From Rhodocaloribacter litoris (lineage in GTDB: Bacteria > Bacteroidota > Rhodothermia > Rhodothermales > ISCAR-4553): a stretch of 64,000 bases of DNA. A model generated the notes under the pieces. That model did no database searches. It saw nothing but the letters and a program-made list of their open reading frames with translations, and was not told where the DNA came from. A program made the translations under genes and the position numbers. The DNA lies in assembly GCF_011682235.2 (NCBI RefSeq), contig NZ_CP076718.1:3081868-3145867 (forward strand), given 5' to 3'. Of this stretch, positions 16,640 to 51,400 are shown piece after piece. Within the stretch, counting starts at the first letter, position 1. Each line of letters starts with the position of its first letter.

Positions 16640-17881
16640 CTATCCTGGCTGTTTCTCCCCGCTGCCGGCTTTTTTGCTCCGGGTCTTTGGGGCGGCCTGT
16701 CCGGGCCGGGTGGTGCGGCGGGGCCGGTGCCAGGAGCCGTCCAGGCCGGCCTGCAGCCGGTAGCGGTGGATCATCGCATGCAGGTAGCGCTGCGAATAGT
16801 CGTAGCCGCGCAGGGCCACCGTGGTCGCGTAGTGCAGCACCCGGGCGATCCACAGCTTGAAGAGCAACTCTTCCCAGTCGTCGTCGCCGAAGACGAAGTG
16901 GTCCAGCAGCACCGCATAGGTGTCCATCCAGGTTGTCTCGTCCATGAAGGCGAAGCGCGGGTATTGCCGGTTCTTCACCATCTCCTGGCGTACGGGCCGG
17001 GGGAAGCGTTCCAGGAGCTCCTCCTGGCGGGGCGTCCAGTGTTCGCCGAGCAGGCCCAGCGTGCCCTCCAGGTCGAAGCCGAGCTTTTCGGTGATGCCGT
17101 TCGGGACGACGTCGGGGTGTTCGACCCGGTGCAGGGCTTCTTTCGTGATGGCCTCGCCCCGGAGGTTTTGCAGGGCGGCAAAGCATTCCACCAGCATCGT
17201 GCGCAGGTCGGTCAGCTTGCCGTAGAGCTTGTGTGCCTTGCCCTGCGGCATGTACGTTTCGTAGGTCCGGAAGCCGTGCTGGACGCACGAGAAGGTGTAG
17301 AGGGTGTCGATGCCCCAGTCGCTCTGGGCCTGGACGCGCTCGTCCTGTACGAGGGCCTCGGCCACTTCCCGCGTGAAGAGCAACTCGCCGCCGAGGGGCT
17401 GTTCGATCCAGGAGAGCCCGGTGTGAGGCCACAGCAGCGCAAAGCCGGTGCGGGTGATCATCCACGTGATCATGGCATCGGTGCGGGCGCGGGGGAAGTA
17501 GTGGCGCACCACGGAGAAGCCGAAGTCGGCTGCCTCTTCGGCCTTGGTGATCCAGTCCGCCCCGAAGCTGGTGATGTCGGCATCGTAGAAATGGATGCGC
17601 TCGTCCTCACACGCTTCGAGGAAGTAGCGCAGGGCGGTGTTCATCCCGTCGCCCTTGCCCGAACGCCTGTTGCCGATGCGGTCCTGCAAAAGCAGCTCGA
17701 CGCGCGTGCCGGTCTTCATGTGGACCTCCGGGGCCGCCGCCGCGACCGCCCGGTAGGTCGCCTCCTTCTCCACGCCGACGCACAGCACCTGCCGCACGCG
17801 GGGATGGGCCGCGGCCGTGTAGATGTTCCGGATGAGCACCTCGGGGTTTTCGACTTTGAAGGGGAAGCAAACCAGACTCAT
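16640..17881 (-). CDS. mgs: Mannosylglycerate synthase (GT78)
   Basis: A 413-residue retaining glycosyltransferase that joins GDP-mannose to D-glycerate in one step, giving the compatible solute mannosylglycerate. The sequence matches my memory of the Rhodothermus marinus enzyme closely: MSLV-FPFK start, GKGDGMNTALRYFLE, the metal-binding DAD at residues 100-102 in HFYDADITSFG, DAMITWMITRTGFALLWPHT, and DWGIDTLYTF. The C-terminal about 25 residues are Arg/Pro-rich and unlike the homologue. It stands alone with no phosphatase or two-step synthase nearby, as expected for the single-step route. Its presence points to adaptation to heat and salt. Next upstream is the PorU-like gene, 140 bp away. 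Confidence 0.95.
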   Translation of the reverse strand: MSLVCFPFKVENPEVLIRNIYTAAAHPRVRQVLCVGVEKEATYRAVAAAAPEVHMKTGTRVELLLQDRIGNRRSGKGDGMNTALRYFLEACEDERIHFYDADITSFGADWITKAEEAADFGFSVVRHYFPRARTDAMITWMITRTGFALLWPHTGLSWIEQPLGGELLFTREVAEALVQDERVQAQSDWGIDTLYTFSCVQHGFRTYETYMPQGKAHKLYGKLTDLRTMLVECFAALQNLRGEAITKEALHRVEHPDVVPNGITEKLGFDLEGTLGLLGEHWTPRQEELLERFPRPVRQEMVKNRQYPRFAFMDETTWMDTYAVLLDHFVFGDDDWEELLFKLWIARVLHYATTVALRGYDYSQRYLHAMIHRYRLQAGLDGSWHRPRRTTRPGQAAPKTRSKKAGSGEKQPG

Positions 17882-18021: not shown

Positions 18022-21000
18022 TCAACGAATCACGACGACCTTTTCGACCCGGGCGGCTTCGTTGAGCAGGTCGCCGCCGTCGCGGGTGCGGGCGAAGACG
18101 CGGTAGAGGTAGACGCCGGTCGCCACGGGGTCGCCGTCGGCGTCGGTGCCGTCCCACCGCACCTTGTTCCACCCGATGCGCAGGCTGCCGCCCTCGAGCA
18201 GGGCCGGGTTCTCGATCAGGTCGAACTCGCGGAGGAGCCGGCCGGTGATCGTGTAGAGGCGGAGGCGGAAGTCTTCGATGCGTGCGGCATCGGGCCCGAT
18301 GAGGCGAAAAGCGAAGACGGTGAAGTTGTTCATCGGGTTGGGGTACGGGTATACCGGTTCGATGCGCAGGTCGGTCGCCGTGCGGAAGTGCACCTGGTAG
18401 GGGCTGCCTTCGGCCTCGTTGCCCGAGCCGTCGCGGACGTGGACGACGAGCGTGTGGGTGGAGTCGCTGCCGCTGAAGTCGGGCTGGAAACGCAGGCGCA
18501 GCTCGTTGTCGTTGCGTTTGCCGGCGAGCCGGTCGAACGGGATGCGGCGGTCGTCGAGCGTCACGGTGACGACGGTGGTGTCGCCCTGAAGGGGGATGAA
18601 CGGGTTGTCGTCGCGGACGGTGATCTCGATGGTCGGGCGGGCGGGCACGAACGGGAGGGCCGGATCCTGCAGGTTGACGACGGGGTCGGGATCGTGGGGG
18701 TAGGCGATGCCGTCGATGAGCACGTCGAACGAGGGGGGGGTGGCGTCCCGGCGGACGACGAAGGGGGTGCGCAGGAGGTTGTTGAAGACGGCCTGTTCGG
18801 GGCGTTCGGGCTGCCGGAGTACGAGCTGGAGCCGGTGGGTTCCGACCCGGCCGCGTGTCGGCAGGGTGAAGGTGGAGGAGGCGGCCTCGACCAGGTTGCG
18901 CAGGGTGTCGGTATGGACGCGGGTGGTCTCGTTGGCAGGGTCGATGACGAGGTAGTCGAGCAGGGCCGTTTCGGCGGGGGTTGCGCTCAGGTTGCGGGCC
19001 GTCACGCCGATCTCCAGGGGGGCGCCTTCGAGCAGGGTGTCGGCCGAGAGGGTGAGCGTGGCCGGGTCGAGGGCGAGCTCGGGCACGGCGTCGTAGCCGA
19101 CGTACCAGCGGGTGAGCTGGGGGGTGGTCCGGGCGGTGGTGTCGGCCAGCGTGGCGCGCAGGCGGATGAAGGGATGGCGGCGGGCATCGAGGGCCGAAAG
19201 GTCCACCGTACCGGGGATCATCCGGTCGTCGATCAACACCTCGGCGCCGTCGGCCGAGAGCACGGCCACGCGGACCGTACCGCTCGTTCCGGTGTCGGCC
19301 GCCCAGCCGAGCGTGTGCCATGCCTGGGCCGGGCCGATGGGCGGGGAGAGGGTCGTACCCTCGCCGAACCGGAACGTGAGCTCGACGGCCTGCATGATCT
19401 CGTGCCGGCCGTCGTCCGGCGGGGCCACCCATTCGAGCGTGAAGGCCGGATCATCGACCCGGGAGATCATGATCCAGAGGTGCCGGTACGTGAGTGTGTC
19501 GATGGCCGTGCTGCCCAGGGCCCGGAAGACGGCTTTGACGCTGTCCGGGATGACGGTGACGCCGTCCCGGTTGCCCTTGTGTCGGGTGCGGGCGAGCACG
19601 TAGTCCCCCGGCCGGGCCAGGGCGGCCACGGCCTGGAGCTCGGCGAAGGCGGCGGCCGGGTCCTCGAAGTTGTTCGGATAGGTGGGCATCGAGCCGTGGC
19701 CCCGGACGGCGCCGGTGCCCCCGTCGAGCACGAGCAGGCCGAAGCCCAGCTGGTTGCGTTCGTAGAGCTCGCTGTTGACCACGAACTGCCCGTTGTACAC
19801 CTCGGGGCCGCCGTCCCGGGAGCTGGCGGCGCTGACCTCCATCGCGTAGGTTTTGAACCGCCAGGCCGTGCCGGTGTGTTCGAGGAAGGGGCTCTGGGTG
19901 TTTTCCCGGAAGAGGGGGCCTTGCTGGAGCCATCCCGTCTGGCCCAGCGCGGTGTCCACGGTGAGGATCCCCGTCTTCCAGTTTTCGGCCTGATCGGGCT
20001 GGTCGATGCGGGCTCGCCAGTAATAGGTGGTGCCGTCGGTGAGGCCGTCCGGCTGCCAGGTGGCCGCCAGGCGGGCCGGCGGGGTACGATGTACGCGCAG
20101 GGCGGGCGTGTCGAACGTGGGGGCGACGTCGAGCTGGAAGAGGACGGGTTGCGGCATCGGGTCGGCCAGGCTCACGCGCAGCGTCGGGGAGGGGGTGGGC
20201 ACCAGCCCGAAGGCACCCGGCTCGACGAGCGAGAGGCCGGTCGAGAACACCACCTGGGTGCGTTCGGCGACGTTGTTGGTTTCGTCTTCCTCGGCGTAGG
20301 CGTCCGGCGGGTCCAGCGTCGCGCGGAGGCGGTGCTCGCCGGGGCTGTCGGCATCGAGGGGGATCGTGAAGGCGGCGACGTGTTCGAGGCCGAAGGGGGG
20401 CAGCCGCTGCACGTGCCGGGTCGTGGCGCCGCCGGGCGCGGTGTGCAGCAGTTCGAGGTCCACGCTGTCGGCCGGGAGGAGGCCGTAGTTGCGGGCACGG
20501 ACGGTGACGGTCAGCGCCGAGTCGGCCGGGATGGGAGCCTCGGGCGTGACGAGCAGGGCGGCCGGGGTGAGGGTGAAGTCGGGGCGGGTGGGCAGGGACA
20601 GGCGCGTGGCCGGGTCGCCGATGAGGCCGTACTGCAGCACATGCTTGACGGCGAGCGGGTCCCGGCGGGTGAGGCTGTACCGGCGCTTGGCTTCCTGGAG
20701 GGCGAGGCCGAGCGTGCGGAGCGTGTCCACGAAGACGCTGCGGTGGATCTCGTCGCTGAGCTGGGCCGAGGCCAGGATGGTGCCGCTGGAGGAGGCGCCC
20801 CAGTGGGCGATGCTGCCGTTGCGCGTCTCGAGGACGAGTTGCTCGCTGAAGCTGAGCAGGTCGCTACCGGCACCGGTGCCGGTGGCGAAGTCACCGGTGA
20901 AGCATCCGAGCGAGAGGACCACCGGGAGGCGGTCGGCATTGTCGAAGGTGCGGGGCGGGGCGGTGACGATCTCCCAGGTCTGCGCCGCCGAGTGACCGAA

Positions 21001-22971
21001 GTACGTCACCCAGGAGGCGCCGTTGCGGAAGGCCACCTGGAGCGAGTCCCGGAACGTGGGGTCGAGCGGCTCGCTTGCGTTCTTGAAGAAGTGGAGCGTG
21101 TCCAGGGCGGCGGGGGTGTGGTGGACCGTCCGGCTCCATTCGAGGGCGAAACTCTGGAGGGTGCTCTGTTCGAGGGCGCTGGTGCCGCCGACGAGGAACA
21201 GGGCCCGTTTTTGCCAGGCCGCCAGGGGCCGGCTCTCGTAGTGGGCGAGCTTTTCGACGAACAGGAAGCCGGTGTCGTTGTCGCGCAGGGGCAGGCGGCC
21301 GACGGCCAGCCGTTCGGTGTAGTCGTCGAGGCCGTCCTGCTGCATGGCGAACCAGCCGTCCGAGGCGGCGTGGCCGAAGGAGGGCACTTCCCAGCCCGGT
21401 CGGGGGCGGGTGCGGTTCGGGTAAAGGGCGTCCCCCCAGAGGACGAGGAAGCGGGGGGGCGTGGCCCACGCCTGTGTGGTGCGGACGAAACGGCGCAGGG
21501 CCAGGGGAGTCGGCCGGCCGTAGTCGAACTGGTCGAAGACGTCCTGCACATCGACGATCACGACGGTGTGGTTGCCGCCCTCCGGCCCGCTGCGGTAGGC
21601 GGCCAGGGCTTCCGCCGAGGCCCACAGGACCGGGGTCGTGACGATCACGTAGTCGGCTTCGCTGGCGGGGTTGGCCCAGTCGCTGGGCGTGTCCGGGTGC
21701 AGCCGGGCCGGGGTTCGGAAGCCCGTCGCTCCCACGGCCCAGTAGCGGGCCGCCCCCGGCGGGGCATCCTCCACCGTGACGCTCCCCCCGGCCGCCGTGC
21801 GTGCGAAGGCGGCACCGTGCGCGGGGGCGAACACCCATACGGGCCCGTCCGAGAACCCCGACAGCGTGAAACGGTAAGTCCCCCCTTCCGGCACGGCAAA
21901 CGACAGGCGGTTCGCCGAAGCCGTCAGCGAGCGGGTGTAGACAACCTCGATCCAGTCCAGCAGCACCCGGTTGACGGGGGTGTTGTCGAAGTCGTTGGTG
22001 GAGGTGAGCCGGACGGCGAGGTTGCCGTCGGCGGGGAGGCGGTCCTGCGGGACGGACGCCGTGAGCGTGGCGAAGGCCGTTCCGCTCCAGGAGGCCGTGT
22101 CGACGGGGACGAACGTGGTCGTCGAGCCCTCACGCAGGCGCAGGCTGAGGATCACGCGGTGCGGTGTGCTGGTCTCGGCGTTGAGTTGCACGCGCACCCG
22201 GAGGGTGTCGGGGGTGCCGGGGGCGGGGGCGGTCAGGATGGCGTCGTACGTGCGGGTGATCGGGTTGCCCGAGGTGTGCGCGAACCGATCCCAGTAGTAG
22301 CCCTCGCCGCGGGTGTAGAGCGGGTTGCCCGTGGCAAAGGGGTCGCCGAAGAAGTAGAGCGCGTCTTCTTCGAGGTGCAGGGTGTCCCGGGCGGTGGTGC
22401 GTGCGAGCCCGCCCGTCGCCCCGGGTGTGGCGTAGCGCAGGCCGGGCGGTCCGTTCCAGGTCAGCCAGTAGTAGGTCGTGTCCGTGTAGAGGCTGAAGAA
22501 GGTGCTGCTCTGGAACGTGTCCTCGTAGTTGTAGGCCCATGCCTCGTCGTCGCCCCGGTTGCGGCGGCCCACGAAGGCCAGGAAGTCGCCGGGCTGCATG
22601 GTTCCGGCGGTGCCTTCGTAGTGGAGCGGCACCTCCCGGCCGTTCTCAAAGAGCCGAAACGTCGCCGGGTCGATGCCGGCCAGGGAAAGGCCTGCCGCTG
22701 CGAGGTCCTGTCCCGTCAACCGGTAGACCCCGTCTTCCACGACACCGACCTTGAGGTAGGGCCGGTCGGGATGGTACCAGGCGGGGTCGAAGGCGTCGGT
22801 CTGCGCCCGGGCGGCCGGGCCGGCGGCTGCCGCCAGCAACCAGAGCCCCGCATACCACAGGCCGCGTAGCACCGCACGGTGTGCGGTGCGGGCGGGTTCC
22901 CGATGGGCTGCGGGCCGGGGGAAGCGGCGGGCGCCCGCCGCGGGAGCATCCGGTGCGGGAGGCAGGATCAT
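18022..22971 (-). CDS. porU: PorU-like C25 cysteine protease of the type IX secretion system
   Basis: A 1649-residue secreted protein. A long N-terminal region with a signal helix (about residues 37-56, ending ARAQ) precedes a beta-rich domain and a gingipain-type C25 protease domain with the catalytic His in YFGHSA (about 658) and Cys in LSLGCFTGD (about 688). After it come two CARDB-like adhesion modules (ending near DETNNVAERT and FNNLLRTP), further beta domains, and a C-terminal FlgD/T9SS-type domain (PYPNPMNN, WDGTDADGDPVATGVYLYR). PorU cleaves the sorting domain of T9SS cargo and attaches cargo to anionic lipopolysaccharide. The extra CARDB modules make it longer than PorU of Porphyromonas (about 1150 residues), so it could be a related C25 substrate instead. 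It follows sugar-priming genes at 99 bp. Confidence 0.75.
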   Translation of the reverse strand: MILPPAPDAPAAGARRFPRPAAHREPARTAHRAVLRGLWYAGLWLLAAAAGPAARAQTDAFDPAWYHPDRPYLKVGVVEDGVYRLTGQDLAAAGLSLAGIDPATFRLFENGREVPLHYEGTAGTMQPGDFLAFVGRRNRGDDEAWAYNYEDTFQSSTFFSLYTDTTYYWLTWNGPPGLRYATPGATGGLARTTARDTLHLEEDALYFFGDPFATGNPLYTRGEGYYWDRFAHTSGNPITRTYDAILTAPAPGTPDTLRVRVQLNAETSTPHRVILSLRLREGSTTTFVPVDTASWSGTAFATLTASVPQDRLPADGNLAVRLTSTNDFDNTPVNRVLLDWIEVVYTRSLTASANRLSFAVPEGGTYRFTLSGFSDGPVWVFAPAHGAAFARTAAGGSVTVEDAPPGAARYWAVGATGFRTPARLHPDTPSDWANPASEADYVIVTTPVLWASAEALAAYRSGPEGGNHTVVIVDVQDVFDQFDYGRPTPLALRRFVRTTQAWATPPRFLVLWGDALYPNRTRPRPGWEVPSFGHAASDGWFAMQQDGLDDYTERLAVGRLPLRDNDTGFLFVEKLAHYESRPLAAWQKRALFLVGGTSALEQSTLQSFALEWSRTVHHTPAALDTLHFFKNASEPLDPTFRDSLQVAFRNGASWVTYFGHSAAQTWEIVTAPPRTFDNADRLPVVLSLGCFTGDFATGTGAGSDLLSFSEQLVLETRNGSIAHWGASSSGTILASAQLSDEIHRSVFVDTLRTLGLALQEAKRRYSLTRRDPLAVKHVLQYGLIGDPATRLSLPTRPDFTLTPAALLVTPEAPIPADSALTVTVRARNYGLLPADSVDLELLHTAPGGATTRHVQRLPPFGLEHVAAFTIPLDADSPGEHRLRATLDPPDAYAEEDETNNVAERTQVVFSTGLSLVEPGAFGLVPTPSPTLRVSLADPMPQPVLFQLDVAPTFDTPALRVHRTPPARLAATWQPDGLTDGTTYYWRARIDQPDQAENWKTGILTVDTALGQTGWLQQGPLFRENTQSPFLEHTGTAWRFKTYAMEVSAASSRDGGPEVYNGQFVVNSELYERNQLGFGLLVLDGGTGAVRGHGSMPTYPNNFEDPAAAFAELQAVAALARPGDYVLARTRHKGNRDGVTVIPDSVKAVFRALGSTAIDTLTYRHLWIMISRVDDPAFTLEWVAPPDDGRHEIMQAVELTFRFGEGTTLSPPIGPAQAWHTLGWAADTGTSGTVRVAVLSADGAEVLIDDRMIPGTVDLSALDARRHPFIRLRATLADTTARTTPQLTRWYVGYDAVPELALDPATLTLSADTLLEGAPLEIGVTARNLSATPAETALLDYLVIDPANETTRVHTDTLRNLVEAASSTFTLPTRGRVGTHRLQLVLRQPERPEQAVFNNLLRTPFVVRRDATPPSFDVLIDGIAYPHDPDPVVNLQDPALPFVPARPTIEITVRDDNPFIPLQGDTTVVTVTLDDRRIPFDRLAGKRNDNELRLRFQPDFSGSDSTHTLVVHVRDGSGNEAEGSPYQVHFRTATDLRIEPVYPYPNPMNNFTVFAFRLIGPDAARIEDFRLRLYTITGRLLREFDLIENPALLEGGSLRIGWNKVRWDGTDADGDPVATGVYLYRVFARTRDGGDLLNEAARVEKVVVIR

Positions 22972-23070
22972 GGCGCGGTGGTGAAAGCGACCGGGGTGCC
23001 CGGTGATGCAGAGGGTATCGTCCCCGGCGGGTGCCGGTCAACTCCCGAACGTATTTTTGCCCCTGTGGGT

Positions 23071-24591
23071 TCAGCGAAGCGGCTCGTCGTGGGCGACGGG
23101 TTGCAGCGAATCCTGAAAGAGGGCCTTGCGCAGGACCTCGGTCTGGTTCTCTTCGGCCAGGTGCTGGAGATAGGCGAAGTAGGTGTCGAGTTCCGGGCGG
23201 CTGAACGGGGCCGGGCTGCGCAGGCCGATGATGCGGGGGTGCGGCGTCGGGACGGGGACCTCGTCGTCGGCGAAGAGCTGCTCGTGAAGCTTTTCGCCGG
23301 GGCGGATCCCCGTGAAGACGATGTCGATGGGACGGCCGGGGTTCGGGTTGAGCTGCCGGATCATGCGGCGGGCCAGGTCGACGATGCGGATCGGCTCGCC
23401 CATCTGCAGGGCAAAGACGGGGGCCTCGTCGAGCAGGAGGGTTTGCAGGATCAGGCAGGCCGCCTCCCGGGCCGTCATGAAGTAGCGGTCCATGTCCGGG
23501 TGGGTGACGGTCACCGGCCCCCCGGCGGCGATCTGTTCGGCGAAGCGGGGGGCGACGCTGCCCTGGCTGCCGAGCACGTTGCCGAAACGCACCGTCTTGC
23601 AGGTCATCGGCTTCCGGACGGTGCGCACGTACCATTCGGCCAGGCGTTTCGTGGCCCCCAGCACGCTGGACGGGGCAACGGCCTTGTCGGTCGAGATGAA
23701 GACGAACTGTTCCGTGCGGTAGGTCTCGCACAGCTGCACCAGGGCCAGCGTGGCCAGGGTGTTGTTGCGAAAGGCCTCGACGGGATGGCGTTCCATGAGG
23801 GGCACGTGCTTGTAGGCGGCGGCATGGAAGACGACGTCCGGGCGGAGCGAGGCGAAGAGGGTGCGCATCATCGGTTCGTCCCGCACGTCGGCGATGCGGA
23901 AGAGCAGGTCGCCCTCGAAAGGCTGCCCGCGCAGCGCGTTCTCGAGCTGGAAGAGGTTGTACTCGCTCACGTCGACGAGAACCAGCCGGAAGGGGCGCAG
24001 GGTGATCAGCTGGCGTACCAGTTCCGAGCCCACCGAGCCGCCGGCCCCGGTCACGAGCACGGTGCGGCCGGCGAGGTAGTCGCTCAGCGCCGTGCGGTCG
24101 ATCTCGATTGACGGGCGGTCCAGCAGGGTCTCGTAGATCCGGGGGGGCGGGGCGGCCGGGTGGGGGGGGCGGGGGCGGTGGCCGCGCTCGGCGACGTAGC
24201 GCAGCACCGCCCGCAGGCCGAGCACGCCGATGATGGCGAACATGCAGTGGGCGGCCGTCACGCTGCGCGGCGGTATCTGGTCCGGATCGACGAGGTAGAT
24301 CAGCGTCAGCGATGCCGCCCAGCCGATGAACAGGCCCGCGGCGGTCTTCAGAAAGGTATCCAGGTGCATCGCCCGCAGGGGGACGCGGTACAGCCCGCTC
24401 AACCCGAGGGCCGTCAGGTAGACGGGCAGGGTCAGCAGCAGCGTGGTCCGCCACGGCGGGGCGAGGGGGAAAAGATACCAGTCGTTCAGCCGTAGCTTGA
24501 GTGCGCCCACGAAGGCCAGGTAAAGCAGGGCCGCATCGGCCAGGAGGAACGCCAGGATGCCGGCGAGGCGACGGGAAGACGAGAAGGCCAT
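23071..24591 (-). CDS. FlaA1/PglF/CapD-like nucleotide-sugar 4,6-dehydratase
   Basis: A 506-residue membrane-anchored SDR. Four N-terminal helices (about residues 8-120) lead to a Rossmann domain with TGAGGSVGSEL (about residues 184-194), the acidic VDVSEYN, the signature HAAAYKHVPLME and the catalytic stretch STDKAVAPSSVLGATK. This is the layout of UDP-GlcNAc 4,6-dehydratases such as PglF and WbpM. Together with the aminotransferase, acetyltransferase and phosphoglycosyl transferase encoded just upstream it would make and load a UDP-diacetamido-trideoxy sugar. ATG 24591 gives the typical N-terminus. Confidence 0.85.
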   Translation of the reverse strand: MAFSSSRRLAGILAFLLADAALLYLAFVGALKLRLNDWYLFPLAPPWRTTLLLTLPVYLTALGLSGLYRVPLRAMHLDTFLKTAAGLFIGWAASLTLIYLVDPDQIPPRSVTAAHCMFAIIGVLGLRAVLRYVAERGHRPRPPHPAAPPPRIYETLLDRPSIEIDRTALSDYLAGRTVLVTGAGGSVGSELVRQLITLRPFRLVLVDVSEYNLFQLENALRGQPFEGDLLFRIADVRDEPMMRTLFASLRPDVVFHAAAYKHVPLMERHPVEAFRNNTLATLALVQLCETYRTEQFVFISTDKAVAPSSVLGATKRLAEWYVRTVRKPMTCKTVRFGNVLGSQGSVAPRFAEQIAAGGPVTVTHPDMDRYFMTAREAACLILQTLLLDEAPVFALQMGEPIRIVDLARRMIRQLNPNPGRPIDIVFTGIRPGEKLHEQLFADDEVPVPTPHPRIIGLRSPAPFSRPELDTYFAYLQHLAEENQTEVLRKALFQDSLQPVAHDEPLR

Positions 24592-24712
24592 AGACCGATG
24601 GCGCGGTTTCGGGTTTCGACGGTTCCGGCGACCGGCGCTTTGCGGGACACCGGGGACACCGGCAAGGTACGCCTTTGCGCTCAACCGATCCGTGCGCACG
24701 TTGTACGTGGAG

Positions 24713-25951
24713 TCATGGTCCGTGTTCGGGCGATTCCGGCGCGCGGTACGGGGAAGTCTGGACGGTGTGCGCGAGGAGGGTTTCGAACTGCCGGGCGAGC
24801 GCCGTGCGGTCGAACAGGTTGCGGGCGACCGTGCGGCCCCGGCGGCCCGCCTCGGCCAGGGCGGCGGGGTCGGCCAGGGCCGTCTCGATCGTTCGGGCGA
24901 GCGCGGCGGGGTCCGAGGGCGGGGCGTACCACCCGCACCCGTGTTCCTCGACGAGGCGCTTCGTCCAGCCCGGGTTGGTGACGATGACCGGTGTGGCGGC
25001 GCCCAGGCTGTCGCAGAGCTTGGCCGGAGCGTTGGCCGCGAGCACGGGCCGGTCCAGGAAAGATACGACGGAGAGGTCGGCCAGTCGAAACCAGCCGAGC
25101 ATGCGGTGGCGGGGCTGGGGCGGCAGGTGGAGCAGGTGCCCGTGGCGCCGGGCGGCGGCCGCCACGTCGTCCGCGTGATAGCCGTGCCCGGTGAAGACGA
25201 AGCGCAGGTCGTCCCGGGGGGCGAGGCGGGCGGCGGCCTCCAGGAGTGCCGGCAGGTCGTTGGCCCGCCCGAAGGACCCGGCATAGAGGACCACGCGTCG
25301 TCCTTCGAGGCCGTGCGCGCGACGCAGCGCGGCAAGGTCTTCGTCCGTCCAGGCGTCGAGCAGGTCGAAGTCGGTGCCCTGGTGGATCGTGGTCACCCGG
25401 CCGGGCGGCACCCCGCAGGCGCGGACGTGCCCGGCCATGTCCGGGGAGAGGGTGACGACGTGGGCCGCCGCGTCGTACAGGCGGCGCTCCATCGCGTAGA
25501 GGCGTTGCCGCAGCCGGGGCGAGCGGATGGCCCCCATCTGCACGGGAAAGTCCGGCCAGAGGTCGCGTACCTCGAAGACCCAGGGGATGCCGCGCAGGCG
25601 GGCGACGGTAGCCGCCGCCCAGGCCGCCGTCAGCGGGGTCGAGGATCCCAGGATGACGTCGGGGCGCGGGATCGAGAGGCCCCGGACCACCGCCTTCGCC
25701 GCATACCGGGCGAAGGCGAGGGTGCGGCGCCCGGCCTCCATCGTGTTGTCGTAGGGCACGTCGAGCGCGTGCAGCACGACGCCCTCCGGCACCCAGTCGA
25801 ACCGGTGGGAGAGGCGCCGGTCCTGCCACAGGCGTGTGGTGATGAGGGTGATCGTATGCCGCTGCGCCCATTCCCGGATGAAGGCGTAGTGCCGCCCGCC
25901 GAGCGGGCAGTCCGGGTTGTGGTAATACTGGAAGAAGACGGCGAGGTGCAT
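24713..25951 (-). CDS. GT4 family glycosyltransferase (WbuB-like)
   Basis: A 412-residue GT-B fold enzyme. The N-terminus MHLAVFFQYYHNPDCPLGGR resembles WbuB-type transferases; RDLWPDFP (about residue 140), GRANDLPALLEAAARL and the donor-site region around LVEEHGCGWYAPPSDP are the usual conserved points. It likely adds the second sugar onto the lipid-linked diacetamido sugar made by the neighbouring genes. It starts at ATG 25951, 16 bp after the acetyltransferase stop; a longer upstream open frame overlaps that gene antisense-free but has no family signal. Confidence 0.85.
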   Translation of the reverse strand: MHLAVFFQYYHNPDCPLGGRHYAFIREWAQRHTITLITTRLWQDRRLSHRFDWVPEGVVLHALDVPYDNTMEAGRRTLAFARYAAKAVVRGLSIPRPDVILGSSTPLTAAWAAATVARLRGIPWVFEVRDLWPDFPVQMGAIRSPRLRQRLYAMERRLYDAAAHVVTLSPDMAGHVRACGVPPGRVTTIHQGTDFDLLDAWTDEDLAALRRAHGLEGRRVVLYAGSFGRANDLPALLEAAARLAPRDDLRFVFTGHGYHADDVAAAARRHGHLLHLPPQPRHRMLGWFRLADLSVVSFLDRPVLAANAPAKLCDSLGAATPVIVTNPGWTKRLVEEHGCGWYAPPSDPAALARTIETALADPAALAEAGRRGRTVARNLFDRTALARQFETLLAHTVQTSPYRAPESPEHGP

Positions 25952-25967
25952 GGGTGGCAGGCGCAGG

Positions 25968-26603
25968 TCAATGGGAGATCGGACGGGCCGGGACGCCGAC
26001 GGCCGTGATGTTTTCCGGCAGGTCGCGCACGACCACGGCACCGGCGCCAACGCGCGTCTCGTCGCCGACGTGCACACCCGGCAACAGGACACATCCCGTG
26101 CCGAGTTCGACGGCCGCACCCGTCCGCGCATGCCCGGAAACGTGGACGCCGGGGTGGACCGTGGTGTAGTCTCCCAGGATCGCATCATGCCCGACGGTGC
26201 TGTGCAGGTTGAGGAGGACGTGCGTGCCGATGCGTGCGTCGACCGTCACGGTCACGCCCCGGCAGATGATGCTGCCTGCTCCCAGGGACGAGGAAGGATG
26301 CACCGAAGCCTCCGGGTGGACCAGCCGGGCTGGCGAGAGGGGGGCTCCGGCCAGTCGTCGGGCGAGGCGGCGGCGGATCTGCGGGTTGCCGACGGCCAGC
26401 ACGTAGTGCAGGCCTTCCTGGCGGAGCAGCCAGTCCACGTCGCCGAGGAGGGGGTAGCCGAGGCGGGACTGGCCGGCCAGCGCCGGGTCGTCGTCCACGA
26501 ACCCCTGTAAGGTCCAGGCTGGTGTGTGCCGGTTGATGGCTTCCACGAGCGCGGCGGTCTCGCGCCCGAAACCGCCGGCTCCGACAATGACCAGAGGTTC
26601 CAT
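25968..26603 (-). CDS. NeuD/PglD-like sugar N-acetyltransferase
   Basis: A 211-residue left-handed beta-helix acyltransferase. The N-terminal Rossmann-like part starts VIVGAGGFGRETAALVE, binds the nucleotide sugar, and the hexapeptide repeats follow from about residue 95; the catalytic His lies in HSTVGHDAILGDY. This is the PglD architecture, which acetylates the C4 amino group of UDP-4-amino sugars using acetyl-CoA. Its ATG overlaps the stop of the phosphoglycosyl transferase (ATGA), so the two are translationally coupled, as expected for consecutive pathway steps. Confidence 0.85.
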   Translation of the reverse strand: MEPLVIVGAGGFGRETAALVEAINRHTPAWTLQGFVDDDPALAGQSRLGYPLLGDVDWLLRQEGLHYVLAVGNPQIRRRLARRLAGAPLSPARLVHPEASVHPSSSLGAGSIICRGVTVTVDARIGTHVLLNLHSTVGHDAILGDYTTVHPGVHVSGHARTGAAVELGTGCVLLPGVHVGDETRVGAGAVVVRDLPENITAVGVPARPISH

Positions 26604-27274
26604 CACAGCCGGTTCGGCGCTGTGGCGATGCCAGGGGCACCCGGAGGGGGCATGGCTTCGCAGGTAGAAGGAGGAAAATCCTCGTTCCGGCCGGCCGGTC
26701 CGTAGACGCCCCGGCCGGAGAGCAGGAGGCCGGGGGTGCGCAGGAGAATGCGCAGGTCGAGCCCGAGGTTCTGGTGGGTGACGTACCAGACGTCCAGGCG
26801 GATGCGCTCGGGCCAGGGCAGGGCGTTGCGCCCGTGGATCTGGGCCCAGCCGGTCAGGCCGGGGCGAACGGCCAGGCGCTGCCGCTCGAAGGGGCCGTAG
26901 CGGGCCACCTGCTCGGGCAGGGCCGGGCGGGGACCGACGAGGCTCATCTCGCCCCGGAGCACGTTCCAGAGCTGTGGAAGCTCGTCCACACCCCAGCGCC
27001 GGAGAAAACGCCCTACGTGCGTGACCACTTCGGCGGGACGGGTCGGGTCGTGCCGCTTCCGGCGCAGCGTGCGGAACTTGAGCAGCCGGAAAGGACGGCC
27101 GTGCCGCCCGATCCGCCGCTGCCGGAAAAGGACGGGGGAACCGTCTTCCAGAAAAATCAGCCACGCCACCACCACCAGTACCGGGGCGAGCAGCAGCAGC
27201 AGGAGCGCCGCGCCGAGCACGTCCAGCAGGCGCTTGACGAGCGTGTACGCGCGTGGAGGGCGGGCGGTGTTCAT
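26603..27274 (-). CDS. PglC-like phosphoglycosyl transferase (bacterial sugar transferase)
   Basis: A 223-residue monotopic enzyme that moves a sugar-1-phosphate from UDP to undecaprenyl phosphate. One re-entrant hydrophobic segment (about residues 15-40) is followed by the family signatures FRLLKFRTL, WGVDELPQLWNVLRGEMS and VGPRPALPEQ, with the catalytic Asp-Glu pair in VDELPQ. The short length without an N-terminal membrane domain matches PglC/PglB-type enzymes. It is coupled at both ends (ATGA overlaps with the aminotransferase before it and the acetyltransferase after it). The last about 30 residues are Pro-rich and variable. Confidence 0.9.
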   Translation of the reverse strand: MNTARPPRAYTLVKRLLDVLGAALLLLLLAPVLVVVAWLIFLEDGSPVLFRQRRIGRHGRPFRLLKFRTLRRKRHDPTRPAEVVTHVGRFLRRWGVDELPQLWNVLRGEMSLVGPRPALPEQVARYGPFERQRLAVRPGLTGWAQIHGRNALPWPERIRLDVWYVTHQNLGLDLRILLRTPGLLLSGRGVYGPAGRNEDFPPSTCEAMPPPGAPGIATAPNRL

Positions 27275-28434
27275 GAGGCGGGCAGGTTCGGGTGGACGGA
27301 TACCCGCCCGCGGGGCAGGCCGGACAGGCAGGCTTCGAGGGCGCCGGCCACGCGGGCGGGGGCCTCGTCCGGCAGGCGGGTGAAGAAAGGGAGGGCCAGG
27401 GTGCGGGCCGAGGCGGCCTCGCAGGCCGGAAAGGTGCCGGGACGGAAGCCGAAGCGCTCGCGGTAGTAGGGTTGCAGGTGGATGGCCGGAAAATACGGGG
27501 CGCATGCGATGCCGCGGGCCCGCAGCCGTGCCATGAGCAGATCCCGGGCCTCCGGGGCGAAGTGGTCGCGCAGGCGGACGACGTAGACGAACCAGCTCCG
27601 CACCGTGCCGGGCGGGTCGGCGGGCAGGATCAGGTCGTCGGTGAGGGGTGCCAGCGCCTCGGCATAGCACCGAGCCAGCGCGGCGCGACGTGCGAGCAGA
27701 TCCGGCAGGCGTTCGAGCTGGGCGCATCCGAGCGCGGCCGCCAGCTCGCTCATCCGGTAGTTGTAGCCGAGGCGCACGTGCGCCATCACCGCGTCGTCGT
27801 CTCGCCCGTGGTTGCGCATCGAGCGGCATCGGGCAGCCAGGACGTCGTCATCCGTGGTGATGCATCCGCCTTCTCCCGTCGTGATCTGTTTGTTTGGATA
27901 GAAACCGAACGCGGCGGCCGCGCCCCAGCTCCCTACCGGGCGGCCGCCCACCGAGGCGCCGAGGGCCTCACAGGCATCGTCGATCAGAAGCAGGTCGTGC
28001 CGCCCGGCCAGCCCGGTGAGGGCGGGCCAGTCCACCGGCAGGCCGAAGACGTCGACGGCCAGGATGGCCCGCGTGCGCGGGGTGATCGCGTCTTCGACGC
28101 GGCCCACGTCCAGGTTGAACGTCGCCGGGTCGATGTCGACGAAGACCGGCCGGATACCCTCGTAGAGCAGGGCGTTCGAGGAGGCGACGAAGCTGAAAGG
28201 GGTCGTAACGACCTCGTCGCCCGGTCCTAGACCCAGGCCCCGGACGATCAGGTGCAGCGCCGCCGTTCCGCTGCTGACGGCGACGGCGTGCCGCACGCCA
28301 CACAGCCGGGCCATGCGCTCCTCGAACTCGCGCAGGCACGGGCCCAGCGACAGCCGGCCGGAGGCCAGCACCGCCAGGAGACGCCGCCGCTCCTGCGGGC
28401 CAAGGTCGGGACGCGATAGCGGGAGACGACGCAA
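27271..28434 (-). CDS. DegT/DnrJ/EryC1 aminotransferase (PglE-like)
   Basis: A PLP enzyme of about 387 residues. VSSGTAALHL marks the cofactor phosphate site, IDDACEALGA the Asp that contacts the PLP nitrogen, and FGFYPNKQITTGEGG contains the Schiff-base Lys; the family position HVRLGYNYRMSELAAALG is also clear. It would transaminate the 4-keto sugar made by the dehydratase. The likely start is TTG 28434 (LRRLPLSRPDLG) because the open frame upstream is not family-like. It is the first gene of the leftward run that ends with the PorU-like protease; PorR of Porphyromonas, needed for the T9SS anchoring glycan, is of the same family. Confidence 0.88.
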   Translation of the reverse strand: MRRLPLSRPDLGPQERRRLLAVLASGRLSLGPCLREFEERMARLCGVRHAVAVSSGTAALHLIVRGLGLGPGDEVVTTPFSFVASSNALLYEGIRPVFVDIDPATFNLDVGRVEDAITPRTRAILAVDVFGLPVDWPALTGLAGRHDLLLIDDACEALGASVGGRPVGSWGAAAAFGFYPNKQITTGEGGCITTDDDVLAARCRSMRNHGRDDDAVMAHVRLGYNYRMSELAAALGCAQLERLPDLLARRAALARCYAEALAPLTDDLILPADPPGTVRSWFVYVVRLRDHFAPEARDLLMARLRARGIACAPYFPAIHLQPYYRERFGFRPGTFPACEAASARTLALPFFTRLPDEAPARVAGALEACLSGLPRGRVSVHPNLPAS

Positions 28435-28822: not shown

Positions 28823-31183
28823 ATGCTGGAGCACAGCGGTTATAGAGGGCATCGAGGCACCGGAGCCGTGCGCAACGGAACCAACGGCGCCCTCGCCCAC
28901 CCGCGCCCCGAGGCGTTCGAGGACGACGAGATCTCCCTGCAGGAGGTTTTCGAGATCCTCCTCAAGGGCAAGTGGATCATCCTGGCCTGCTTCCTTCTTT
29001 TCCTGACGCTTTCCGCCCTCTATACCTTTCTGACGCCGCGCGAGTATGAGGCGTCCAGCACCCTGTTCGTGAACACGCAGGGGTCGAACTCCCAGCTGAA
29101 CGAGTTGCTGGGGCTGAGCCTCGTCAACCGGAATATTCTCAACGAGATCGAGATCATCAAGTCCCGCATGATCGCCACGCGGGTGGCGGAGCATCTGATG
29201 CGGCAGCGGGTCAATCCGGAGACGGGGACCCTGTTGAGCATCCTCGAGGTGGATGAGGAGGAAGAGCCGCTGACGTTGCTGGAGGTGAGCCAGCGCCTGC
29301 GGGAGGATTACCTCTCCGTGAAGCCGGCCACGGACGAGGTGGATCTGGTCGTCATCACGGCCCGGAGTACGCAGCCCGAGGAGGCCGTGCTGATCGCCAA
29401 CCTGTATGCGGACGAGTACGTCGCCTACAACCAGACCTCCAGCCGGGCGCGGATGCGGGCCTCGGCGGACTTCCTGGCCGCGCAGGCCGCCCGCTTCGAC
29501 AGCCTGCTGGGCAGGGCCGAGCAGAACATCCTGCAGTACATCGAAGAGACGGGTGTCGTCGATCCGAGCATCGAGGGTGAGCAATTGCTTGAGCAGATCA
29601 TGCTCTGGAGTGCCGAGCGGGATCGCACGCGCTTTACCCTGCAGACGGCCCAGGCCGAACTGGAGGCCCTCGAGAACGAACTCAGCCGCATCAACCCCGA
29701 ACTGACGCGGCGCCTGGCCTCGAACGACGATGCCGCCATTGCCGCGCTGCAGCAGCGCATCACCGACCTCGAGATCCGGCTGGAAGAGAAGTATTCGAAG
29801 AACCCCCAGCTGCGCCGGGATCCCGCGGGTGACCCGGAGGTGCAGCTGTGGCTGACGCAGCTCGCGGACTGGAGGCAGAAGCTGTCCGAGCGGGTGGCGC
29901 GTTTCACCTCGGATGCCCTCGCCGGCACGTCCCTGCTCGGGGGCGGGGCGGAAGGCGTGTTCAAACAGGTCACCGAGTTGCAGCAGCAGATCCTGGAAAA
30001 GCGGGTCACCCTCACCGGTGCCCGGGCCCGCCTGTCCGTGCTGGAGCAGGTGCTCGCCGGCTACGAACGCCGGTTCAACGAGATTCCCAACAAGGCCCTC
30101 GTCCTTTCGCGGTTGCAGCGGGAGATGCAGAGCAGCATGCAGCTGGCAACCCACATCTTTGAAAAGCTCCAGGAGGCCAAGATCGCCGAGCAGTCCGAAC
30201 TGGGCTACGTGGAGGTGATCGACCACGCCGTGCCGCCGGAAGAGCCGGTAAGCCCGCGGGTGCCCCTGAACCTCATGCTGGGTGCGCTGCTGGGCCTGTT
30301 CGTGGGGGTCGGCGTGGCGTTCCTGCGCACCGCGCTCGACAACAAGGTGCGCAAGCCGGAAGACCTGCGCAAGCGCGGGCTCAGCGTCGTCGGCGTCGTG
30401 CCGGACCTGTCGCGCCTGATCAAGACGGATTTCAACGGGCGGGAGCGGATCACGGTCGAGGGGCGCACCTACAGCACCAGCCTGATCACGCTGCTGAACC
30501 CGCTCTCGCCGGCCTCGGAGGGCTACCGGCGCCTGCGCACCAACATCCAGTTCAGCCAGCCCGATGCCACGGTGCAGGTCGTCATGGTCACCAGTTCCGG
30601 CCCCGGCGACGGCAAGACCGTCACCTCGGTCAACCTGGCCGTCACCATGGCGCAGGCCGGGCGGCGCACCCTCTACCTGGACGCGGACATGCGCCGGCCT
30701 ACCGGCCACAAGGTGCTCGGCCTCGCCCGCGAACCCGGCCTCGTGGACCTGCTCTTCGAGCCGGCCGCCGCCGGGCTGGAACGCTTCGCCACCGGCGTCG
30801 ACGACCTCTATGCGATTCCCACGGGGCGTCCCGTGCCCAACCCCGCCGAAGTGCTCGGCTCCAAGAAGATGCGCGACCTCCTGGCCCGCCTCCGGCAGGA
30901 GTTCGACATGATCATCATCGACACGCCGCCGGTGCTGGCGGTGACCGACGCGCTGCTGCTCTCCAACCAGTGCGACGCCACGGTGGTGGTCGTCTCGGCC
31001 AACGAGACGCCCTGGCACGCCCTCGAACACAGCCTCGAGGCCCTGCAGGGGGTCGGGGCCCGGGTCACGGGCGTGGTGCTGAACCGGTTCGATGCCCGCG
31101 CCGCCTACGGATACGGCTATGGATACGGCTACGGCTACGGGTATCATTACGGCGAGACCGAACAGGCCGCCGCCCGCCTCTGA
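28823..31183 (+). CDS. Wzc-type polysaccharide co-polymerase and BY-kinase
   Basis: A 786-residue inner-membrane tyrosine autokinase controlling polysaccharide chain length and export. A first helix (about residues 52-70) and a second one (about 480-500, VPLNLMLGALLGLFVG) frame a long periplasmic coiled-coil region (Wzz/GNVR type). The cytoplasmic kinase has Walker A SSGPGDGKT (about 590), Walker A' DADMRRP (about 620) and Walker B IIIDTPP (about 697), then a Tyr-rich tail of alternating Gly and Tyr (about 764-776) that is the autophosphorylation cluster. It heads the rightward operon and is followed by the SLBB export gene after 50 bp. Confidence 0.92.
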   Translation: MLEHSGYRGHRGTGAVRNGTNGALAHPRPEAFEDDEISLQEVFEILLKGKWIILACFLLFLTLSALYTFLTPREYEASSTLFVNTQGSNSQLNELLGLSLVNRNILNEIEIIKSRMIATRVAEHLMRQRVNPETGTLLSILEVDEEEEPLTLLEVSQRLREDYLSVKPATDEVDLVVITARSTQPEEAVLIANLYADEYVAYNQTSSRARMRASADFLAAQAARFDSLLGRAEQNILQYIEETGVVDPSIEGEQLLEQIMLWSAERDRTRFTLQTAQAELEALENELSRINPELTRRLASNDDAAIAALQQRITDLEIRLEEKYSKNPQLRRDPAGDPEVQLWLTQLADWRQKLSERVARFTSDALAGTSLLGGGAEGVFKQVTELQQQILEKRVTLTGARARLSVLEQVLAGYERRFNEIPNKALVLSRLQREMQSSMQLATHIFEKLQEAKIAEQSELGYVEVIDHAVPPEEPVSPRVPLNLMLGALLGLFVGVGVAFLRTALDNKVRKPEDLRKRGLSVVGVVPDLSRLIKTDFNGRERITVEGRTYSTSLITLLNPLSPASEGYRRLRTNIQFSQPDATVQVVMVTSSGPGDGKTVTSVNLAVTMAQAGRRTLYLDADMRRPTGHKVLGLAREPGLVDLLFEPAAAGLERFATGVDDLYAIPTGRPVPNPAEVLGSKKMRDLLARLRQEFDMIIIDTPPVLAVTDALLLSNQCDATVVVVSANETPWHALEHSLEALQGVGARVTGVVLNRFDARAAYGYGYGYGYGYGYHYGETEQAAARL

Positions 31184-31233: not shown

Positions 31234-31737
31234 ATGACACGTTTCGTCCTGTTTGCGCTCCTGCTGGCCTCCGGCAGCCTGTGGCCGGTGCAGGCCCAGC
31301 AGCTGACCGAGTTTGAACGCTCCCGCTTTTCTCCCGCAGCCTACTACAACTACGCCGAGCCGGGCGACGTGACCATGCTCGTCAACGTCTGGGGGTCCGT
31401 GCGCAATCCCGGCCTCTACGAGGTCCCCCGGAACACGCGGCTCAGTACCCTGATCTCGCTTGCCGGCGGGCCGGACCTCGCCACGAACGCCAGCCTGCAG
31501 GCCAACCGCACCATCACCATCCGGCTCATCCGCGACGCGGGGGGGACACGCAGCACCGTCTTTTCGACCTCGATGCGCAACGAAGTGCTGATCTTCGACG
31601 AGAACCCCGTCCTGCAGGAAGGGGACGTGCTGGTGATGGAGACCATCCTGAAACCGAAGATCATCTGGAAGGACGTCTTCCCCATCGTCGCCGCTCTTGG
31701 AACGGTGGCACTGGCGATCGAGCGGATTTCCCGCTAG
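31234..31737 (+). CDS. SLBB-domain polysaccharide export protein
   Basis: A 167-residue secreted protein. A signal peptide (about residues 1-21, ending VQAQQ) is followed by one SLBB/soluble-ligand-binding unit (VNVWGSVRNPGLYEVPRNTRLSTLI), as in Wza-family outer-membrane export channels, but the usual Poly_export N-terminal domain is reduced, and a hydrophobic helix near the C-terminus (IVAALGTVALAI) suggests membrane anchorage. It probably links the periplasm-facing co-polymerase with export. ATG 31234 is chosen because it gives the signal peptide; an upstream open frame has none. Confidence 0.75.
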   Translation: MTRFVLFALLLASGSLWPVQAQQLTEFERSRFSPAAYYNYAEPGDVTMLVNVWGSVRNPGLYEVPRNTRLSTLISLAGGPDLATNASLQANRTITIRLIRDAGGTRSTVFSTSMRNEVLIFDENPVLQEGDVLVMETILKPKIIWKDVFPIVAALGTVALAIERISR

Positions 31738-31937: not shown

Positions 31938-33308
31938 ATGAAAATTGCCATCATTGGAACCGGCTACGTGGGCCTGGTGACGGGTACGTGCTTCGCCGAA
32001 ATGGGGAACGAAGTGGTCTGTGTCGACATCGACGCGGCGAAGATCGAGCGCCTGCGCTCCGGCAAGCTGACCATCTTCGAGCCGGGCCTCGAACTCTTCT
32101 TCGAGCGAGGCCTGCGCGAGCGGCGCCTGCGTTTCACCACCGACCTGGCTGAGGCCGTCGCCACGAGCGAGGTGATCTTTCTGGCGCTGCCGACGCCGCC
32201 GGGCGAGGACGGGTCGGCGGACCTGTCCTACGTGCTCGGCGTGGCGGAGGACATCGGCCGGTTGCTGGCCGCCGAGGAGGCTTCCCGCTACCGCATCCTC
32301 GTCAACAAGAGCACGGTGCCGGTGGGCACGGCCGAGCGGGTGCGCGCCGTCCTGGAAGCGGCCGGCCTGAAAGCCGGGCAGCACTTCGACGTCGTCTCCA
32401 ACCCCGAATTCCTGCGCGAGGGGGTGGCCGTCGAGGACTTCATGAAGCCCGAACGGGTCATCATCGGCACCGGCAGCCGCCGTGCCGCCGAGATCATGAC
32501 GCAGCTCTACGAGCCGTTCGTCCGGCAGGGCAACCCGATCCTGGTCATGGACGAGCGCTCGGCGGAGATGACCAAGTACGCCGCCAACGCCTTCCTGGCC
32601 ACCAAGATCACGTTCATGAACGAGGTGGCCAACGTGTGCGACCGCGTCGGGGCCAACGTGGACAAGATCCGCATCGGCATCGGGCTCGACAGCCGCATCG
32701 GCAAGCACTTCCTCTACGCCGGCATCGGCTTCGGCGGCAGCTGTTTCCCCAAGGACGTGCAGGCCCTGGCCCGCACGGCCCAGGCATACGGCTACGATTT
32801 CGAGATCCTCGAGGCCGTCCTCCGCGTCAACGACCGGCAGCGCCGCCTGCTCGTCGACCGCGTCGTGGACTACTTCGGGGGCGACCTGACGGGCCGCCGG
32901 ATCGCCGTCTGGGGGCTGGCCTTCAAGCCGAACACGGACGACGTGCGCGAGGCGCCCTCGCACGTGGTCATCCGCGGCCTGCTCGAACACGGGGCCGAGG
33001 TCGTCGCCTTCGACCCCGAAGCCATCGAGACGACCCGCGCCGTGCTGGGCGACGTCGTCTCCTACGCCGAGGACGACTACGCCGCGCTGCAGGGCGCCGA
33101 TGCCCTCGTCATCTGTACCGAATGGAACGAGTTCCGCCGTCCCGATTTCGACCGGATGCGCCTTCTGCTCAAGCAACCGGTCATCTTCGACGGGCGGAAC
33201 CTCTATGACCCCGTGCGCATGGCCGAGGGCGGTTTCGACTACTACAGCATCGGCCGGCCCCACTACGCGCCGGTCGCCAACCCGGTCTCCATCAACGGAA
33301 AAGCCTGA
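31938..33308 (+). CDS. ugd: UDP-glucose 6-dehydrogenase
   Basis: A 456-residue cytosolic enzyme that oxidises UDP-glucose to UDP-glucuronate with two NAD. The NAD motif GTGYVG is at residues 7-12, and the catalytic Cys lies in [10 protein letters not shown] at about residue 269; the C-terminal UDP-binding domain contains [17 protein letters not shown]. Full length for the family. It lies 5 bp before the UDP-glucuronate decarboxylase gene, so the two should be co-translated and together give UDP-xylose. A TACTTTAC sequence about 25 bp upstream of the ATG could be a -7 element, allowing separate expression from the wzc operon. Confidence 0.95.
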
Positions 33309-39424: not shown

Positions 39425-39560
39425 CCCTGACGCCGGGTGCGTCTCCCCCGGTCGTTTCCGACAGAGGTAAGCGGTGGGAGACGGCGAAGTTGGTGGGGCT
39501 GTCCTTCCAACCGACCGTGTATCGAAGTGAACCGGCAGGTAGAAACGGACACGGGGCACG

Positions 39561-39712
39561 GCGAAGGAGGAGGTCCGGTGGATCGTTCTGCGCGGGCTCG
39601 AAGGCGAGTCGGCGCGGGTGTACCTGTTCGACTCGTCCGCAACGAGGCGTTCGAAGAGGGCACCGTGCCGTATGTGGTGGATCTTGCCGCCATCTCGTCG
39701 GCGTTCCGTAAA
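39561..39712 (+). pseudogene. Relic of an MNT-type nucleotidyltransferase (antitoxin)
   Basis: Two frames carry adjoining pieces of a minimal nucleotidyltransferase. Frame one (39561-39635) reads EEVRWIVLRGLEGESARVYL then FDS, matching the family start that ends in the GS catalytic motif; frame two (39638-39712) reads EEGTVPYVVDLAAISSAFRK, matching the family's C-terminal part. The segment with the DxD motif is missing and the frames are out of register, so an internal deletion and a frameshift have destroyed the gene. No start codon precedes it after the in-frame TAG. Recognition is by eye. Confidence 0.5.
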
Positions 39713-39734
39713 CCGATTGTGGGGGGAGCGTGCC

Positions 39735-39832
39735 GTGACGCGATTGAGGCAACAGGTCAGGGTGGCACGGCAGGCGCTACGCTGCACGAACTGCCGCTGG
39801 CAGTGGTCCCATTGGTGGAGCGTGATGCACCA
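39735..39832 (+). pseudogene. Relic of a HEPN (HI0074-like) toxin partner
   Basis: Directly after the nucleotidyltransferase relic a GTG starts MTRLRQQVRVARQAL, and after a shift of frame the sequence continues TLHELPLAVVPLVERDA. Together these resemble the N-terminus of HEPN substrate-binding proteins that pair with MNT nucleotidyltransferases. Later conserved parts, including the RX4-6H motif, are not found. The order antitoxin then toxin fits known MNT/HEPN modules, both here decayed. Confidence 0.4.
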
Positions 39833-39986
39833 TCCCAAGCGAATCTGGGTGTGTTCGTCGCACGTGTTGCGTTTCCTGTGTCTTGCTGGGTAGGTGAGGT
39901 GTACAACGTGTCTTTACATAGCGGAGGTCCTTATTTGGTTGGCCTAGCGGTCATTGGTAAGATGGGTAGCGATCCATACCAACCAC

Positions 39987-40053
39987 GTAGCCGCGGGCTT
40001 CAGCCCGGGCCCTCCGGCGGCCGGTGGGGCGAACCCCTGAAGGATGCGGCTAC
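39987..40053. repeat. REP-like 67-bp element with 8-bp terminal inverted repeats
   Basis: GTAGCCGC (39987-39994) and GCGGCTAC (40046-40053) bound the element, and an internal hairpin CGGGCT-TC-AGCCCG lies at 39994-40007. This structure resembles REP/MITE-like elements common in GC-rich genomes. It sits right at the left border of the AT-rich polysaccharide block. Confidence 0.55.
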
Positions 40054-40128
40054 TATCATGTTTCGGCTACTGTGCCTGGAAATGCTTTCTTTGGAGGGTG
40101 TGAAGTCAACTCCGCTGCGGTGTACATC

Positions 40129-44617: not shown

Positions 44618-44640
44618 ATTAGTTGTGAGGCAAAGATAAA

Positions 44641-45894: not shown

Positions 45895-45897
45895 AGT

Positions 45898-47025: not shown

Positions 47026-47048
47026 GGTTCAAACCAGGTGTATTTGAG

Positions 47049-48239: not shown

Positions 48240-48268
48240 AGGTCATTATCTTAATCAGACCTTCATGA
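48234..48268 (+). terminator. Strong hairpin overlapping a stop codon
   Basis: Perfect 11-bp arms (TCATGAAGGTC at 48234-48244 and its complement at 48258-48268) enclose a 13-nt AT-rich loop. The left arm includes the stop codon of the GT4 gene. No T-run follows, so it may act as an mRNA-stabilising or attenuating hairpin rather than a terminator. Confidence 0.5.
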
Positions 48269-48308
48269 CAGGCTTTCCTTTCAAAGTTAACCCTATCGAC
48301 AGGTAAAT

Positions 48309-51234: not shown

Positions 51235-51400
51235 TGATTCTTGACACTCCCACGGCTCTGGGCACGTGGGATTCTTGCTTCATCGACAGTTGCCTTCGCT
51301 AACCAGAGCTAGCGCCGGTCTTACACCGTCTCCACAAGCTGACACGGTATGTCCTACCGCCAGAATATTCTGTGCCGCGTTTATATCGCGGTCATGTTCC
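51235..51400 (-). ncRNA. Predicted omega RNA of TnpB
   Basis: TnpB nucleases use an RNA derived from the 3' end of tnpB and the right end. By analogy the RNA would cover the last about 100 nt of the gene, the 51248-51271 hairpin and then a guide copied from the flank just left of about 51235. Location is inferred from the family; exact ends are unknown. Confidence 0.4.

Follow-up and report, generated by a model that had tools for sequence, protein, structure and literature searches.

A PorU2-type C25 peptidase encoded beside amino-sugar synthesis and priming genes in Rhodothermales: a possible second route of surface protein attachment

Linking sugars and sortases in described systems

PorU of P. 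gingivalis, the sortase of its type IX secretion system (T9SS), is thought to resolve a thioester with an amine on a glycan linker (PMC8545088). The linking sugar is 2-N-seryl, 3-N-acetylglucuronamide in this species (PMC7468200) and an N-alanyl deoxyhexose in Prevotella intermedia (PMC11969387), and in the papers that we found T9SS linking sugars are defined in three species only and differ among them. The authors of the P. intermedia work anticipate several as yet unknown ways of making such sugars (PMC11969387). Here we describe an operon-like gene set in Rhodocaloribacter litoris, which lies in a window of 64,000 nucleotides (G000:C1:3081868-3145867) of a complete 4.5 Mb genome. An earlier note had read these genes as a PglE-C-D-A-F set for a diacetamido sugar followed by a PorU-like protease, which together would provide the anchor glycan of secreted proteins.

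The gene set resembles the Wbp/Vim pathway of P. gingivalis and T. forsythia in that it may be an amino-sugar route dedicated to T9SS anchoring, but WbpA/B/E/D and VimA/E make 2,3-diamino uronic acids (PMC7468200), whereas the window set would make a 2,4-diamino-6-deoxy sugar. With the P. intermedia linker (PMC11969387) it would share the use of a deoxy amino sugar for T9SS linking and a synthesis that does without key Wbp/Vim enzymes, although that linker comes from a distant lineage and is used with a canonical PorU. The Campylobacter Pgl pathway for diNAcBac has a PglF-like dehydratase, a PLP aminotransferase, a PglD-type acetyltransferase and a short PglC-like phosphoglycosyl transferase (PGT), all of which have counterparts here; unlike in Campylobacter, the last gene of the window set encodes PorU2, and the dehydratase and aminotransferase differ in the details given below. 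As for the protease itself, PorU (NF033707; P. gingivalis structure 6za2) and the window PorU2 have in common the C25 fold, the His/Cys pair and the PorU-type C-terminal domain, but the window protein is longer (about 1650 aa versus about 1320), carries an extra CARDB/ILEI/Ig-like region and is not encoded beside PorV.

The gene set and its PorU2-type peptidase

Profile matches and coordinates place all six genes where the earlier note had put them, on the minus strand from about 28434 down to 18022:

27271 to about 28434, minus strand: DegT-family nucleotide-sugar aminotransferase (DegT 380 bits; PLP lysine motif GFYPNKQITTGEGG)
26603-27274, minus strand: short, PglC-like PGT (Bac_transf 202 bits)
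25968-26603, minus strand: PglD/NeuD/VioB-family sugar acyltransferase (NeuD/PglB/VioB family, above the curated cut-off)
24713-25951, minus strand: GT4 glycosyltransferase, WcaI-like
23071-24591, minus strand: PglF/WbpM-type membrane nucleotide-sugar 4,6-dehydratase (Polysacc_synt_2 309 bits; N-terminal membrane part)
18022-22971, minus strand: PorU2-type C25 cysteine peptidase, putative second T9SS sortase, 1649 aa (C25 197 bits)
PorU2 residues 441-791: C25 domain with catalytic H660 and C690
PorU2 residues 808-903: CARDB-like domain
PorU2 residues 1076-1172: ILEI-like domain (under the Pfam cut-off here, over it in the relative L041)
PorU2 residues about 1514-1649: PorU-type C-terminal domain

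The starts of the aminotransferase, whose reading frame is open to 28575, and of the protease, for which an alternative start near 22872 is possible, are uncertain. Since the aminotransferase frame overlaps that of the PGT, and the PGT frame that of the acetyltransferase, one transcript is likely; the gap between dehydratase and protease is 99 bases.

The best PDB match of the dehydratase was WlaL/PglF (226 bits, with other families at 124 bits or less), and its motif SSVLGATK has Leu at the position of PglF Met405, a feature of 8/8 PorU2-linked copies that were checked, this one included. PglC was the top PDB match of the short PGT (134 bits), which is the expected primer of the glycan on polyprenyl phosphate. 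The acetyltransferase came closest to VioB, a pilin-glycosylation enzyme and perosamine N-acetyltransferase, and is most likely an N-acetyltransferase of the C4 amine, while the nearest solved structures of the aminotransferase in the PDB ranking were perosamine synthetase and ArnB. Taken together, these structural relatives indicate a C4-amino, 6-deoxy sugar as the predicted product, which need not be diNAcBac. The enzymes of the Pgl diNAcBac set are thus present together, and this part of the PglE-C-D-A-F assignment was borne out. The GT4 enzyme has no special similarity to PglA; we rejected it as a PglA ortholog, because its best curated matches were of the WcaI type and its PDB match was weak.

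The C25 peptidase scored 434.2 bits with the PorU2 model (NF052324, 'putative type IX secretion system sortase') against a cut-off of 450, matching nearly the whole of this N-terminal model (positions 11-879 of 879), and the relatives scored in the order reached about 360 to 437 bits. With the PorU model NF033707 it scored 213.6 bits, below the 420-bit cut-off. The pair H660/C690 was invariant in 62/62 aligned sequences. When the C25 domain and the one after it were modelled with AlphaFold (pLDDT 92.9), a fold search with this model found the gingipains and P. gingivalis PorU. The 'PorU-like' protease is best assigned to the PorU2 group. It is not the PorU of this genome: a canonical PorU (NF033707, 994.6 bits) is encoded at G000:C1:474282, 2.6 Mb from the window protease and directly followed by PorV. 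The organism has a T9SS, as SprA/Sov, PorU, PorV and cargo C-terminal domains (CTDs) were found. A PorV2-like gene at G000:C1:508464 (292 bits against a cut-off of 325) was considered as a PorU2-specific partner and rejected for this order, since such genes are near-universal in the order (94/114 species) regardless of the presence of PorU2.

It could be argued that PorU2 is an ordinary gingipain-like T9SS cargo protease, secreted, trimmed and anchored by the canonical PorU. Its C25 fold is indeed closest to the gingipains RgpB and Kgp in the model-based search, and it carries a T9SS-type C-terminal domain. However, the search of the genome with the cargo model Por_Secre_tail (PF18962) gave 69 matches, among which were neither the PorU2 tail nor that of PorU, so type A cargo is not supported; the tail instead matches that of PorU (39%, E 2.5e-14), it is conserved within the order to the same degree as the catalytic domain, and the best family model is PorU2. 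We consider the cargo explanation very improbable. Because the tail is conserved, matches PorU and is absent from the cargo CTD matches, PorU2 looks like a component of the T9SS machine. The ILEI-like domain recurs among PorU2 proteins, and a weak match to the stem domain of POMGnT1 suggests, and only suggests, a relation to glycan binding. Fold search with the model of the C-terminal region was uninformative beyond PorU, as a series of Ig-like domains has counterparts in many proteins. Our literature searches found no paper naming PorU2 and nothing relevant on C25 proteins in polysaccharide clusters.

Polysaccharide genes adjoin the set on the opposite strand:

28823-31183, plus strand: Wzc-like tyrosine autokinase/chain-length determinant (divergent; same position in several relatives)
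31234-31737, plus strand: SLBB (Wza-like) polysaccharide export protein
31938-33308, plus strand: UDP-glucose/GDP-mannose dehydrogenase family (UGD; conserved neighbour)

In the Wzc-like kinase, Gly and Tyr alternate along the C-terminal tail, which is encoded at 31100-31183 on the plus strand (GYGYGYGYGYHYGE). At 33314-35680 (plus strand), a UDP-glucuronate-decarboxylase-like SDR gene is split by a LAGLIDADG intein (PF14890, PF14528); its orthologs in L034, L040, L044, L045 and L102 are uninterrupted. From about 39500 to 48500 the GC content is 0.44-0.55, compared with about 0.65-0.70 around, and this stretch, with flippase-like, heparinase-like, GT2, Wzy and GT4 genes, is likely an acquired polysaccharide core. 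Further on are a TnpB-like gene (51280-52446, minus strand) and a long WcaJ-type PGT (52834-54186, plus strand), so that the region has two priming enzymes. The gene that follows PorU2 immediately downstream, in the same orientation, encodes mannosylglycerate synthase (16640-17881, minus strand; PF21969/PF21967), a compatible-solute enzyme, and was not seen again beside PorU2 in the relatives checked. No amino-acid-transferring (VimA-like) gene was identified within the window.

Gene order and co-occurrence in the order and phylum

Among 114 Rhodothermales species, PorU2 was found in 38 and the aminotransferase ortholog in 29, with both in 28. Orthologs of the aminotransferase were recognised by scores above 460 bits, cleanly separated from other DegT genes, which stayed below 272. 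Of the 76 genomes without PorU2, 75 also had no aminotransferase ortholog, and the sole exception is 72% complete. Fisher's exact test gave p = 3.5e-17 for this co-occurrence, a value that is descriptive only, as the genomes are related and phylogeny is not corrected for. Where both genes were on the same contig (19 genomes), they always lay within 23 kb of each other (19/19). PorU2 occurred without the aminotransferase in 10 genomes, three of them from one genus of family f4 and the others partly incomplete; PorU2 can thus exist without the sugar set, and a 4-amino sugar is not obligatory for it. The linkage held in four families (f1, f2, f8 and f13) and the co-occurrence in six, at PorU2 identities of 42-68%, the closest named locus being that of a Rhodothermales MAG (68%).

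The complete order aminotransferase-PGT-acetyltransferase-GT4-dehydratase-PorU2 is also present in Longimonas halophila (L102) and in L040. It is near-complete in L033, whose contig ends ahead of the aminotransferase, L035 and L045, and the L034 and L037 neighbourhoods have aminotransferase-dehydratase-PorU2; overall, L033-L037 and L045 carry partial gene sets. Within genus g14, G013 is without PorU2, aminotransferase and dehydratase, while G023, G033, G047 and G054 have all three. The comparison of gene order in relatives, which the earlier note had proposed, therefore shows a neighbourhood conserved far beyond chance. PorU2 has its stable partners in the aminotransferase and the dehydratase. 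Conservation is lowest for the acetyltransferase, which is absent from the L034, L035, L037 and L045 neighbourhoods and has a GNAT gene in its place in L036. Although an acetyltransferase is present in the window locus, di-N-acetylation is thus not necessary; 'diacetamido' is the least secure element of the earlier reading, and we rejected a strict requirement for it as a general rule. At the acetyltransferase position of G008 (L036:825-2691), the GNAT gene is accompanied by a frame-broken ORF pair that is FemAB/VimA-like by eye, with no Pfam match; these genes are a possible aminoacyl-transferring replacement.

In a wider survey of 296 genomes of the phylum, the PorU2-model matches had two kinds of neighbourhood that are split by score relative to the cut-off. 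PorU2 genes that exceed it frequently follow a conserved gene of about 380 aa directly upstream (PorV-like in several) and have glycosyltransferases nearby in 3/12 loci, whereas those with window-like scores outside the order have glycosyltransferases within five genes in 11/13 loci, often with a WecG/TagA-family gene immediately upstream. In the tree, the order's PorU2 is placed next to the over-cut-off group and not inside it. Together with the glycosyltransferase-rich loci beyond the order, this makes the association of PorU2 with glycan genes look old and general, with sugar genes that vary by lineage. Tandem duplicate PorU2 genes were seen in several Bacteroidota genomes (L064, L067 and L076).

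A possible second attachment pathway and its alternatives

PorU2 and the genes that make and prime an amino sugar occur jointly across the order and probably act together. In the reading that we favour tentatively, and to which we give a little under an even chance, the locus is a second surface attachment pathway with PorU2 as second sortase and the amino-sugar glycan as acceptor. The product of dehydratase and aminotransferase would be a UDP-4-amino-4,6-dideoxy-HexNAc, whose C4 amine would be capped in those loci that have the acyltransferase, and the short PGT would put the sugar onto polyprenyl phosphate, after which GT4 and the adjoining Wzc/Wza/Wzy cluster would lengthen and export the glycan. 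PorU2 would reach the surface through the T9SS and stay there by means of its uncleaved PorU-type C-terminal domain, and as a C25 transpeptidase it would cut a client protein and resolve the thioester with an amine on the glycan. Here we infer the covalent attachment, as well as the sugar product, the export of PorU2, the transpeptidation, the clients and the role of the glycan as acceptor. Since a linker amine is the proposed nucleophile for PorU (PMC8545088) and P. intermedia has an N-alanyl deoxyhexose linker (PMC11969387), an amino-deoxy sugar could plausibly serve as acceptor, and the co-inherited dehydratase and aminotransferase would be a sensible source of an amine-bearing deoxy sugar. 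The earlier reading of the locus as an anchor-glycan set is thus partly supported: the joining of cargo to glycan by PorU2 is putative, and the T9SS linkers described so far contain other sugars (PMC7468200, PMC11969387).

Against a second sortase it can be said that acetylation at C4 would leave the sugar without a free amine, that canonical PorU is already in the genome, and that the adjacent exopolysaccharide cluster would need a primer anyway. The last point leads to the main rival, a serious one even though we consider it unlikely: the five sugar genes may prime an ordinary Wzx/Wzy exopolysaccharide or O-antigen and supply its first sugar, with PorU2 acting at the surface as a protease or scaffold by which proteins associated with this polysaccharide are processed or organised without being joined covalently. 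The Wzc, Wza-like SLBB, UGD, Wzy, flippase-like and GT genes that adjoin the set fit this, as does the persistence of Wzc or UGD beside PorU2 in several families, and in f4 PorU2 is still beside GT4 and Wzc without the aminotransferase and dehydratase orthologs. However, the aminotransferase tracks PorU2 almost one-to-one, more closely than expected from a general polysaccharide role, and PorU, the characterised outer-membrane C25 protein with such a tail, is a transpeptidase. It may also be that the genes are linked without a shared function, with PorU2 in a hotspot of polysaccharide genes and inherited or transferred jointly with them. Polysaccharide loci are variable regions, the low-GC stretch lies adjacent, and the co-occurrence statistic ignores phylogeny; nevertheless, linkage and co-occurrence over so many families at such PorU2 divergence, the joint absence of the three genes in G013, and the PorU2 genes in glycosyltransferase loci outside the order all speak against mere linkage, which we regard as quite unlikely.

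If PorU2 is indeed a second sortase, Rhodothermales may have two T9SS attachment systems, PorU/PorV and a PorU2 with its own co-inherited linking-sugar pathway, in which a PglC-like-primed 4-amino-4,6-dideoxy sugar would couple distinct proteins to exopolysaccharide or O-antigen, and the glycan-locus PorU2 of other Bacteroidota may be matched to different local glycans. We put this broader proposal forward as speculation that is somewhat unlikely to hold in full. The locus is a concrete candidate for a linking-sugar route that is genetically tied to a second putative sortase family, and it occurs in cultured bacteria such as Longimonas halophila; it would make the question of how sortases and glycans are matched in the T9SS directly testable.
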